This document shows, in pieces, positions 25,234 through 29,086 of a stretch of DNA of 53,463 nucleotides. This DNA is from Chloroflexota bacterium. GTDB taxonomy: Bacteria > Chloroflexota > Dehalococcoidia > CAUJGQ01. Location of the stretch: positions 1 to 53,463 of the forward strand of contig CAUJGQ010000155.1 of NCBI GenBank assembly GCA_963170165.1. Reading direction: 5' to 3'. Each line of letters begins with the position of its first letter. The first letter of the stretch is position 1. The notes under the pieces were generated by a model. That model did not search any database and was not told the DNA's origin. It saw nothing but the letters and a program-made list of their open reading frames with translations. The position numbers and the translations under genes were made by a program.

Positions 25234-25538
25234 CTAGGCCACCCGCGGGTCAAACGGCGTCGCGATCCCGGCGTGCGCCTCGATGACTTCGCCGGCGGCC
25301 AGGCAGATGTCCTCCCGGTAGCGCCGCGAGACCACCTGCACCCCCATCGGCAGGCCACAGCCATCGCCGCATCTCCGCTGACGCTCCCGACAATCTGGGC
25401 GGCCCAGCCCGCGCCAGCGGTGATGCCATGACGTCCAGCGACATGCGCACACCGGCGGCTTCCATCGGCTCGACGATGGTGTCGACACGCTGCAGATCGG
25501 TGCAGGCATTTCTGAGGAAGCCGCCGCGACCGAAGCAA
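25234..25538 (-). pseudogene. Amidase C-terminal remnant
   Basis: The last 41 codons of this block read GLPMGVQVVSRRYRED and on to a TAG stop, matching the C-terminus of the intact amidase encoded at 27674-29086. Upstream of 25358 the similarity stops and no single frame is continuous: amidase-like or other protein-like pieces appear in two frames up to the rhodanese stop at 25539. I read this as the 3' end of a lost amidase gene. The middle part (25360-25538) contains a plausible but unidentified peptide in another frame. Confidence 0.6.
25255..25358. repeat. 104-bp perfect direct repeat, copy 1
   Basis: These 104 bases are identical to 27695-27798, which code for the C-terminal part of the intact amidase. 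The two copies are 2440 bases apart in the same orientation. Beyond the repeat, the last seven codons before each stop differ but keep the same length. Confidence 0.95.
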
Positions 25539-25955
25539 TCAATGGGGGGCTGGTCGCATGCCCGCATCCTGGATCGGCAGGCCCGCCTGTCTCCAGCCCT
25601 CGATGCCGCCCTCAATGTAGCGGACGTTGGTGAAGCCCATGTCGTGCAGTGTCTTGGCGCTGATCGCCCCCAGCGGACCCAGCACACAATGCGTGATGAC
25701 CGGGCGCGACCGATCCGCCAGCCGCGCGTCCCGCCAGCTCTCGGGCATCTCGGTGTCGGCGCGCACCGGCAGCATCCCAGCGGAGATGGGAACCGCGCCC
25801 TCGATGTGCCCGTCCGCCTGAATGTCGGCGGCATCACGAACGTCGATGAGCAGCGCGTTTGGGTCGCACTTCAGCACCTCTTGCGCTTCGGCCGCGCTGA
25901 TGCCCGGGACCGCCGCCTGCGCCTCACCCACCATTTGCATGAAGGTCTTCGCCAT
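25539..25955 (-). CDS. Rhodanese-like sulfurtransferase domain protein
   Basis: Single rhodanese domain of 138 residues. LLIDVRDAADIQADGHIEGAVPIS is the usual N-terminal pattern (shown by DVRD and GHIEGA), the active-site Cys90 lies in the loop HCVLGPLGA, and GFTNVRYIEGGIEGW is the C-terminal mark. Rhodaneses carry sulfur, and some carry selenium, as a persulfide or perselenide on the Cys. The ATG at 25955 has GAGAGGGAG upstream. The gene follows the TGA-containing methyltransferase by 35 bases on the same strand, so they are probably co-transcribed. A role in arsenic, sulfur or selenium handling fits the context but is not proven. Confidence 0.88.
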   Translation of the reverse strand: MAKTFMQMVGEAQAAVPGISAAEAQEVLKCDPNALLIDVRDAADIQADGHIEGAVPISAGMLPVRADTEMPESWRDARLADRSRPVITHCVLGPLGAISAKTLHDMGFTNVRYIEGGIEGWRQAGLPIQDAGMRPAPH

Positions 25956-25990: not shown

Positions 25991-26782
25991 TCACCTTCGG
26001 GCCGGCTTGACGGCCGCAAATGTCACGCCGCGCGTGCCAAACTGCCTTGCGTCTGATTCGTGCGCGCTTCCGGAAAACACATCCACCTGCTGGCCCCAGC
26101 GGACCTGGGTGAAGCCGGACTGCGCCAGCACCCATTGCCACTCTGCCTCCAGCAGAGCGCCGGCAATTCAGCCGGACCACAGGTCGATGTCGTCCTTCGC
26201 GTCCTGTGGCACCTCCTGATGGACAACGATGTCAGCGATCTGGATGCGGCCGCCTGGGCGCAGCACCCGAAAGACCTCGCGCATGACGCCGAGCTTGTCC
26301 GGGCAAAGGTTGATCACACCGTTGCTGATCACTACGTCGACACTGCCATCAGCCGCTGGCAAGTCCTCGGCGTAGCCGTGACGGGCCTCAACATTGGTGA
26401 GGCCGAGCGCTGCGGCGCCGGCTTGCGTCTTGAGCCGCATCGCCTCGGTCATATCCACCGCGATCACGCGCCCGGAGGGACCGATCTGCCGCGCCGCCTG
26501 CAACGTGTCGAAGCCGGCGCCGCAGCCGAGATCGAGCACCCGCTCACCTGGGTGCAGCCGGCCCAACGAGAATGGGTTGCCGGTGCCAGCGAAGGACTCC
26601 ACGGTGCTGGCTGGTAGCCAAGCGATGCCGGCTTTGTCATAGCCAAGCATCTGTGCCAACGGGCTGCCGGTATGGAAGTGGAACCCCTTGGCGGGTGTGA
26701 GCGCCACCTCCGTGTACTTGGCCGAAACCCGCGCACGCAGCTGATCGCGGTCTACACGAGACGCGGACACCGACGGTTCCAT
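25991..26782 (-). CDS. arsM: ArsM-like SAM-dependent methyltransferase, predicted selenoprotein (in-frame TGA)
   Basis: Reading through the TGA at 26168-26170 gives a 263-residue protein. The SAM domain has motif I VLDLGCGAG at about 82-90, VIAVDMTEAM, and the family marks GNPFSLG, SNGVINLCPDK (Cys160) and GGRIQIADIV. The TGA (residue 205) falls in DLWSG-U-IAGALLEAE. ArsM-type relatives have Cys there (DLWxGCIAGAL), and that Cys binds arsenic in characterised enzymes. The frame continues for 58 residues with the expected end (SGFTQVRW, VDVFSG, AAVKPARR) to a TGA at 25991. A SECIS-like hairpin starts right after the codon. Start is ATG 26782; GTG 26785 is possible. Product: methylated arsenic or another thiol-reactive substrate, inferred. 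A plain nonsense mutation is the alternative. Confidence 0.85.
26134..26167 (-). promoter_or_regulatory. SECIS-like hairpin directly after the in-frame TGA
   Basis: On the minus strand the 34 bases after the TGA fold as follows: lower stem ATTGCC (first six bases) with GGCAAT (last six), a GGC bulge, upper stem GCTCTGC with GCAGAGT (one G-U pair), and a five-base apical loop TGGAG. All six lower and six of seven upper pairs are Watson-Crick. Bacterial SECIS elements lie at this place, within the coding region and just 3' of the Sec codon, where SelB binds. Confidence 0.75.
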
Positions 26783-26859: not shown

Positions 26860-26877
26860 GTCAATACGTTCCTTGAC
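26860..26877. promoter_or_regulatory. Inverted repeat overlapping two divergent -35 boxes, candidate ArsR operator
   Basis: GTCAA at 26860-26864 and TTGAC at 26873-26877 form a perfect inverted repeat with an 8-base spacer. The right arm is part of a TTGACA (26873-26878) facing arsR, with a weak TTATGT 15 bases later. The left arm is part of a TTGACG facing the methyltransferase gene. A repressor bound here would block both promoters. ArsR sites often have TCAA...TTGA arms, so the adjacent ArsR is the natural candidate. Confidence 0.55.
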
Positions 26878-26918
26878 AAATCATACGGTTGAGTTATGTC
26901 CGGAATGCACAGCGCCTC

Positions 26919-27589
26919 ATGAGTCACCGCGCCTTCAAGAACCGCCTCTATGCCGAGTTCGCCCGGATTGGAACCGCGCTTGCGAGTGATAAGCGGTTGG
27001 AGTTGCTCGACCTGCTCGCACAGGCGCCTCGCCATGTGAAGGGGCTGGCCTCCGAGATGGGGCTGCCCATGGCGAATGTCTCTCAGCACCTCCAGGTGCT
27101 GCGGCAGGCGCGGCTCGTCGAAGCGCAGCGCACCGGCGTGAAGGTCCAGTACCGGCTGGCAGGTGAGGATGTCCTACGGCTGTGGCTGGCGCTGCGCACA
27201 GTCGCGGAGACCCGACGCGCGGAGATCAGCGGCTGGCCGGCGAGTCCGAGATGCTGGAATCAGAGGACGCCGCCGTCCCGCGGAAAGAGCGGCTTGAACG
27301 GGCGGCACGCGGGGATGCCGTCGCGATCGACGTGCGTCCGGCGCTGGAATACGCCCACGGTCACCTGTCCAGCGCAATCTCCATGCCCGTTGAGACGCTT
27401 CCAGCGCGGCTTGGTGAGCTGTCAAAAGAGTAGACGATTGTGGCGTACTACCGTGGCGCCTACTGCCTCTTTGCCGGCGAGGCCGTCGCCTTCCTTCGCC
27501 AGCACGGCTTTGACGCCGTCCGGCTGGTGGGAGGCTGGTCTGAATGGCAGGCCAAGGGCCGGCCGGCTGCCTCAGAAACCACTGGATAG
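26919..27589 (+). pseudogene. arsR-rhodanese fusion gene, disrupted
   Basis: Residues from ATG 26919 form an ArsR-family helix-turn-helix domain: RAFKNRLYAEFARIG, KRLELLDLLAQAPRHVKGLA, then MANVSQHLQVLRQARLVEA. In intact relatives a rhodanese domain follows in the same chain. Here the frame shifts near 27225-27230, and the rhodanese part (AIDVRPALEYAHGHLSSAIS) continues in another frame, meets a TAG at 27431, and resumes with IVAYYRGAYCLFAGEAV to a stop at 27587. The active-site Cys of the YCRGxYC motif is Tyr. The DNA-binding part alone could still be made (as a protein with an unrelated tail) and repress the divergent operon. Confidence 0.8.
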
Positions 27590-27673: not shown

Positions 27674-29086
27674 TTACGACACGCCGGGCTCTACCGGCGT
27701 CGCGATCCCGGCGTGCGCCTCGATGACTTCGCCGGCGGCCAGGCAGATGTCCTCCCGGTAGCGCCGCGAGACCACCTGCACCCCCATCGGCAGGCCACGC
27801 AGCGGCTCGACCGGCACAGCCAGGCCGGGCAGGCCCAGCACCGGCAGCGTCAACTGGAATTGCAGCGCGTTCAGCATCCGCGCCGCTCCGGCTATCCCAT
27901 CGGTATCCACACCAACCGGCACCGCCACCTCTGCGCAGGACGGCATCACGATCACCGGGTAGGTCTCCATGAATAGACCCCACAGGCGGATCAAGGTGTC
28001 GCGCTCGGCCAGTGCGCTCAGGTAGTCCTCCAGGTCGTAGCCCCCCCGCAACTCAAACCAGGCATTGACGAACGCTTCAATACCCGGGTCGCCCGCATCC
28101 TTCACGGCGGGACGCAACGTCAGGTTGAGATCTGACAGTCCGATGGGGTGCCACAGCTCGGCGGCACGGGCCAGTTGCGGTGGTGCTACCTCCTCCACCT
28201 GGTATCCGGCCGCGGCCAGCGCCGTACCTGCCCGGCGGACAGCGGCCACAACGGCCGGATCGACCTCGATACCCGCCGGCGCGGTCACCAGTGCGGCGCG
28301 CACGGGCCGAGGGAGCGGCTCGCCTTCCAGCGGGGCGGGGGTCCACAGGGGATCACGCGGGTCGCGCGCCGCCATTACCGATAGCGCCAGCCGGATATCA
28401 CGTACACTGCGCGCCATCGGTCCGTTGACCGCCATCAACTGGCCGGACATGCGCCGGGAGACGGTAGCCGTACCGTTGAACGAGGCCACCCGGCCGGGGC
28501 TCGGCCGCAGGCCGGCCACGCCGTTGCAGTACGCCGGCCAGCGGATGGAGCCGCCGATATCGTTCCCCTGGGCGATCACTCCGATACCCGCCGCCAATGC
28601 CGCCCCTGCGCCGCCACTAGAGCCGCCGCACGTAAACGCCGGGTTCCAGGGATTGAGGGTGCGGCCGTGAAGGGCGTTGTCGGTCATGGCGCGCATCGAG
28701 AAGGCGGGGGCATTGGTCCGGCCAATGACGATCGCCCCGGCTCGGCGCAGGCTGCCCACCACCGGGCTATCCTCGGCGGCGATCAAGTTCCGAAAGATCG
28801 CCAGGCCATTGTCGGTCGGGCAGCCTGCCTGGTCGGTGTTGATTTTGGTGGTGACCGGCAGCCCGTGGAGCGGTCCCAATCGCTCGCCGGCCAGCCGGGC
28901 ACGGTCGGCGCGGTCTGCTTCCGCCAAGGCCTGATCCTCGAGCGTGAGTACCACCGCATTGATAGCCGGATTGACGGCGCGCAGGCGGTCCAGGTGAGCC
29001 TGGACGGCCTCCCGTGCGGATACCTGCCCCGTCTGGATCAGCGTTGCCAAGGACGTCGCATCAAGCTTCCACAGTGGCTCTGCCAT
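27674..29086 (-). CDS. Amidase signature (AS) family hydrolase
   Basis: Amidase of 470 residues, the usual length. The Ser-cisSer-Lys triad is visible: Lys81 in LPVTTKINTD, cis-Ser in FTCGGSSGGAG (156/157), and the nucleophile Ser180 in GNDIGGSIRWPA. Such enzymes hydrolyse amides, and sometimes carbamates, in the cytosol; no signal peptide is seen. The ATG at 29086 follows AAGGGG. Its 3' end contains one copy of the 104-bp repeat shared with the remnant at 25234-25538. No clear operon partner. Substrate unknown. Confidence 0.92.
   Translation of the reverse strand: MAEPLWKLDATSLATLIQTGQVSAREAVQAHLDRLRAVNPAINAVVLTLEDQALAEADRADRARLAGERLGPLHGLPVTTKINTDQAGCPTDNGLAIFRNLIAAEDSPVVGSLRRAGAIVIGRTNAPAFSMRAMTDNALHGRTLNPWNPAFTCGGSSGGAGAALAAGIGVIAQGNDIGGSIRWPAYCNGVAGLRPSPGRVASFNGTATVSRRMSGQLMAVNGPMARSVRDIRLALSVMAARDPRDPLWTPAPLEGEPLPRPVRAALVTAPAGIEVDPAVVAAVRRAGTALAAAGYQVEEVAPPQLARAAELWHPIGLSDLNLTLRPAVKDAGDPGIEAFVNAWFELRGGYDLEDYLSALAERDTLIRLWGLFMETYPVIVMPSCAEVAVPVGVDTDGIAGAARMLNALQFQLTLPVLGLPGLAVPVEPLRGLPMGVQVVSRRYREDICLAAGEVIEAHAGIATPVEPGVS
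27695..27798. repeat. 104-bp perfect direct repeat, copy 2
   Basis: Identical to 25255-25358 over 104 bases. It begins seven codons before the amidase stop and covers the codons for GLPMGVQ to the AHAGIATP end. Because the copy boundary is sharp at both ends, a recent duplication or gene conversion is likely. Confidence 0.95.

Follow-up and report, generated by a model that had tools for sequence, protein, structure and literature searches.

The gene at positions 25991 to 26782 on the minus strand of the window, a stretch of 53,463 nucleotides, very probably (about 95%) encodes a genuine selenoprotein in which the in-frame UGA at codon 205 is read as selenocysteine (Sec). The assignment is made from sequence. 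It is based on the conserved UGA and SECIS element, on a full set of Sec genes in the genome, on purifying selection that acts before and after the UGA, and on one replacement of Sec by Cys, seen in genomes where the machinery was not detected. The product is an ArsM-like methyltransferase. Sec at this Cys of ArsM is already known from the literature and NCBIfam; the window gene is a new member of that group and represents at most a sub-clade. The features discussed below are as follows.

25991..26782, minus strand: coding sequence of the predicted ArsM-like selenoprotein, 263 residues with Sec at 205, from the read-through translation and 36 orthologues with the same organisation.
26168..26170, minus strand: in-frame UGA, predicted Sec205 in DLWSG-U-IAGAL, at the position of CmArsM Cys224; TGA in 36 of 38 orthologues and TGC in 2 of 38.
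26141..26157, minus strand: predicted bacterial SECIS core with a 6-bp stem CUCUGC/GCAGAG and loop UGGAG, from conserved pairing, synonymous constraint and fit to the bSECIS model.
25539..25955, minus strand: single-domain rhodanese gene (Pfam PF00581, E 1e-17), 35 nt downstream of the methyltransferase gene.
26919..27589, plus strand: divergent gene for an ArsR-rhodanese fusion regulator, with PF01022 and PF00581 matches on its two pieces.

Reading frame, UGA and SECIS hairpin

The minus-strand frame opens with ATG at 26782-26780, reaches the in-frame TGA at 26168-26170, continues for a further 58 codons and closes with a terminal TGA at 25991-25993. The first-pass annotation had described this frame with exact coordinates and the exact motif DLWSG-x-IAGAL. 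Searches of Pfam and NCBIfam identified the read-through protein as a SAM methyltransferase for which the nearest models are arsenite methyltransferases, and residue 205 aligned with the Cys of GECLAGAL or GECLGGAL in ArsM sequences of solved structure. The full-length AlphaFold2 model, built with 29 family members and with Sec entered as Cys, had a mean pLDDT of 92.8 and showed the SAM-methyltransferase fold with ArsM as the closest structure. The three top-ranked structures were 4fr0, 5evj and 6cx6 with TM-scores (query) of 0.70-0.72, CmArsM and CrArsM being the best. The model locates strands 225-229 and 251-258 after the UGA. A 204-residue product, obtained with the UGA as stop, would be without these two strands, which are part of the sheet, and is expected to be inactive.

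In order to compare codon 205 among relatives, orthologues at 47-73% identity were collected from one genome per species, yielding 38 distinct sequences that span the codon after removal of duplicates and with the window's sequence included. The codon was TGA in 36 of these, the window's among them, TGC in the other two, and no other codon was found. Residue 205 is accordingly a strict Sec/Cys column, which the first-pass annotation had suggested looking for. Cys is also present at this position in paralogues and in the solved ArsM proteins. The holders of TGA are mostly Chloroflexota, together with one MAG each recorded as Acidobacteria, Latescibacterota and Rokubacteria; these names are those of the records, and MAG labels are subject to error. 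Judged by these relatives, the source of the window is probably a member of the Chloroflexota as well. Comparison of the window gene with eight relatives gave dN of 0.19-0.26 and dS of 0.9-1.7 before the UGA, and dN of 0.18-0.28 and dS of 0.8-1.5 after it. The dN/dS ratio was approximately 0.13-0.26 on both sides, indicating that selection on the protein is equal upstream and downstream of the TGA.

Most members with TGA carry CTCTGC-TGGAR-GCAGAG immediately 3' of the UGA. The window hairpin, CTCTGC-TGGAG-GCAGAG at 26157-26141, begins 10 nt from the UGA and has a lower part that extends in the minimum free energy (MFE) fold, so that the earlier description of a two-part hairpin is a fair one. 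The published bSECIS model specifies a loop of 3-9 nt at a distance of 16-37 nt from the UGA, with G within its first two bases, an upper stem of 4-16 bp and an MFE of -7.5 kcal/mol or lower (PMC13188914). The window hairpin, for which a SECIS check had been proposed at the outset, lies within all of these limits with a 5-nt loop, G at loop position 2, 6 bp, a distance of 16 nt and an MFE of -16.6 kcal/mol over 33 nt. In the orthologue alignment 96.1% of stem cells were paired, compared with 22-59% when the partners were slid by 1-3 columns, and the pair 18-26 was seen as GC, AU, CG and GU, that is, with compensatory changes. Covariation is modest, only one pair being altered on both sides, because the SECIS element is so conserved. 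The orthologues of the TGA form retain a hairpin just 3' of the UGA that conforms to the published model, in two of them (L028 and L090) with its register shifted. TGA homologues without a hairpin, named in the first-pass annotation as an argument against Sec, were not seen among them. At sites where the amino acid is conserved, the major-codon frequency was 0.89 within the hairpin, against 0.65 for the other codons, and the hairpin value is among the highest for any 7-codon stretch of the gene. Synonymous sites within the hairpin are thus constrained. Taken with the shared TGA and the stem pairing, this places the observation well outside chance.

Sec machinery and a natural Sec-to-Cys pair

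The genome of the window yielded matches for SelA (432 bits), SelB (318 bits, above cut-off), SelD (355 bits, above cut-off) and tRNA-Sec (70 bits, anticodon TCA), the last on a contig other than that of the window, in which Rfam and tRNA scans gave no matches. All four genes that the first-pass annotation had named for a search (selA, selB, selC and selD) are thus present. SelD (L063, G000:C150:16052-16984) is itself a selenoprotein by sequence, with a UGA in SCGG-U-ASKAGP at the catalytic Sec position; the organism therefore appears to insert Sec at UGA in at least one further gene, a well-known case. Strong SelA was found in 21 of a further 26 genomes whose orthologue has TGA, and tRNA-Sec or SelB in 4 more, comprising G157 (a SelA fragment, tRNA-Sec and SelB), G041 and G195 (tRNA-Sec) and G211 (SelB). 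The sole case among the 26 in which SelA, tRNA-Sec and SelB were all unfound was G113, a genome 93% complete with its TGA-form gene at G113:C49:55497-56156 (L091), for which missing contigs or contamination are possible explanations. SelA on its own is a weak indicator in this class: it was also found in 18 of 29 genomes whose only ArsM relatives are more distant and mostly of the Cys type.

The two orthologues with TGC at codon 205, L076 of genome G221 and L083 of genome G051, both encode a full-length protein and both are devoid of the hairpin. The tree places them as sisters inside a clade of 28 sequences (support 100/99) in which every other member has Sec, a position that points to a switch from Sec to Cys. 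No SelA, tRNA-Sec or SelB over the cut-off was found in G051 (96% complete) or in G221 (only 72% complete). This natural pair, in genomes without detected machinery, is a ready comparison for what selenium buys a methyltransferase.

The results bear on two other explanations of the UGA. Mutation of a Cys codon to TGA, in a pseudogene or through sequencing error, would be in keeping with the local decay or error seen in the adjoining ArsR-rhodanese gene, which is broken, and in a duplicated fragment of 104 bp nearby. This explanation is ruled out by the recurrence of the TGA across 36 distinct sequences, since the error would have to be common to all 36 assemblies. Conservation of the SECIS, with its compensatory changes, and constraint past the TGA oppose it further, and its probability is taken to be negligible. 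An equally slight probability is assigned to a UGA that is a true stop after a functional 204-residue protein, or that is reassigned throughout the genome. The short protein is what gene callers would report, but the C-terminal tail, which contributes two strands to the core, is selected like the remainder of the protein, and the two TGC orthologues yield the full length. Genome-wide reassignment is ruled out by the same gene, which also terminates at a UGA (25991-25993). The original proposal of Sec at the in-frame TGA is supported by the machinery, the Sec/Cys column and the fit to the bSECIS model, and in the selenoprotein reading SelB and tRNA-Sec would decode UGA 205 as Sec at the hairpin directly downstream. 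The gene is a clean and multiply supported instance of UGA recoding in mostly uncultured bacteria, in which gene callers will truncate the protein.

Known relatives, active site and substrate

An arsenite methyltransferase selenoprotein with UxxG and one Sec, for example WP_011987699.1, was described by Fomenko et al. 2007 and is tabled in a 2026 review (PMC13188914). Arsenite S-adenosylmethyltransferase was listed among bacterial selenoproteins by Peng et al. 2016, with a first count of 39 organisms (PMC5029168), and the GOS survey contained 8 sequences of a Sec arsenite methyltransferase (PMC2398784). The window protein resembles the listed UxxG enzyme in being ArsM-like and stand-alone with one Sec, and its motif U-I-A-G fits UxxG. 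It differs from the listed enzyme, which falls under the NCBIfam ArsM model NF008823, in scoring 224.7 bits (E 1.5e-66) against a cut-off of 263, and the features SNG and GFHFHTG are known here from the window clade alone. Three families of multi-Sec fusion selenoproteins, NF041537 (ArsM_AhpD_UU), NF041536 (ArsM_DUF2284_UU) and NF047649 (MTase_UXPK_star), have been defined (Haft and Tolstoy 2025, per PMC13188914). They have the methyltransferase domain with UxxG in common with the window protein and give the best profile match, over nearly its whole length. However, the window protein has one Sec only and is without an AhpD, DUF2284 or UXPK-star domain, and its scores of 229.9, 216.2 and 206.6 bits are less than half of the respective cut-offs of 510, 575 and 460. 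Membership in these families is ruled out by score and by the missing second domain.

The arsenic ligands of CmArsM are Cys72, Cys174 and Cys224 (PMC5552862), of which only the position of Cys224 is kept, as Sec205 in the window protein and as Sec or Cys among the orthologues. At least 37 of 38 orthologues have Gly (Gly155) at the position of Cys174, with SNG replacing the canonical SNC, and no N-terminal Cys is conserved among the 38. Cys87 is present in 29 of the 38 and Cys160 in 25, and residue 205 is the sole invariant chalcogen. The motif GFHFHTG contributes two histidines, His35 and His37, that do not vary among the 29 aligned sequences. A partnership of Sec205 with Cys160, suggested in the first-pass annotation, is unsupported and was dropped, residue 160 being unconserved. 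Compared with canonical ArsM (CmArsM 4FR0/4FS8, CrArsM 5EVJ) and with the ordinary Cys-type paralogue of the same genome (L011), which has SNC, the window protein has the fold, the Cys224-equivalent position and the SAM motifs in common, whereas it has Sec for Cys224, Gly for Cys174, unconserved N-terminal Cys ligands and a shorter C-terminus.

Both two-Cys and single-Cys ArsM proteins are known (PMC8649762), and thus the three-Cys feature is less than absolute for ArsM. TtArsM of Thermus thermophilus is a single-cysteine enzyme for which histidines are proposed as the other ligands (PMC8649762), and methylation of As(III) by the window protein is for this reason still plausible. The window protein is comparable to TtArsM in the single-chalcogen mode and the proposed His ligands, and TtArsM is regulated by an ArsR/SmtB protein. 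The likeness is in mode only: TtArsM has no Sec, carries its single Cys within the N-terminal domain (position 77) and is distant in sequence (PMC8649762).

The product is best explained as a SAM-dependent methyltransferase that stands alone and belongs to the ArsM superfamily. The selenol of Sec205 would take the place of the arsenic ligand Cys224 as the main chalcogen ligand, many orthologues having no other. The selenol would hold a soft electrophile, most likely trivalent arsenic, that attacks the methyl group of SAM, with other contacts possibly provided by His35 and His37 as proposed for the histidines of the Thermus enzyme. The divergent ArsR-rhodanese gene would fit regulation by arsenic or by reactive sulfur species.

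Judged from these sequence features, an arsenical is the probable substrate, with odds of roughly two to one in its favor, and methylation of arsenite is likely. A soft substrate other than arsenite, for instance a compound of selenium, tellurium, mercury or reactive sulfur, or an arsenical that already carries a methyl group, is considerably less probable. It would account for the change of SNC to SNG with residue 205 alone invariant and no conserved N-terminal Cys, the score under the NF008823 cut-off, the canonical Cys-type paralogue elsewhere in the genome, and the rhodanese neighbors, which together with the metallo-beta-lactamase/rhodanese fusion and MFS carrier beside L037/L038 point to sulfur chemistry. 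Against it, the nearest models and structures are all arsenite methyltransferases, an ArsR-type regulator adjoins the gene, and a single-Cys ArsM is biochemically known (PMC8649762). A still more tentative and rather unlikely proposal is that the genes form a distinct stand-alone single-Sec clade, mainly of Chloroflexota, that has lost the three-thiol arsenite site. Its enzymes would use one selenol, with invariant histidines, to bind and methylate a soft substrate, either a metalloid or a chalcogen but not inorganic arsenite, and an ArsR-rhodanese protein would be their regulator. Whichever the substrate of the predicted selenoprotein, what it methylates has become a directly testable question because the other cysteines that bind arsenic have been lost.

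Gene neighbourhood

The single-domain rhodanese gene at 25539..25955 on the minus strand is probably on the same transcript as the methyltransferase gene. Close orthologues of it were not found beside arsM in the flanks of relatives, where there were some distant rhodanese matches. An ArsR-rhodanese fusion is near the methyltransferase gene in approximately 10 relatives, and orthologues near arsM are intact and in frame in L083, L037, L088 and L034. The window copy at 26919-27589 is disrupted twice, with a frameshift near 27240 and a TAG in frame at 27431-27433, which reflect either real decay or assembly error. An exact direct repeat of 104 bp (25255-25358 and 27695-27798) was also observed. 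It consists of the end of an amidase gene (27674-29086, minus strand) and a duplicate of this end on the downstream side of the rhodanese gene.

A possible operator, the inverted repeat TCAA-N8-TTGA, is located at approximately 26860-26885 in the region that separates the ArsR-rhodanese gene from the divergent methyltransferase gene. It lies approximately 94 nt upstream of the window gene and 80 nt upstream in L083, and is missing from most relatives. In two other loci a second methyltransferase gene with its own in-frame TGA is found in tandem, at L030:1507-2151 (G001) in the motif LDDWFR-U-IGGA and at L049:6348-6992 in the motif LEDWFR-U-IGGA. These tandem genes belong to a separate, long-branched clade and are possibly a further family of Sec methyltransferases.
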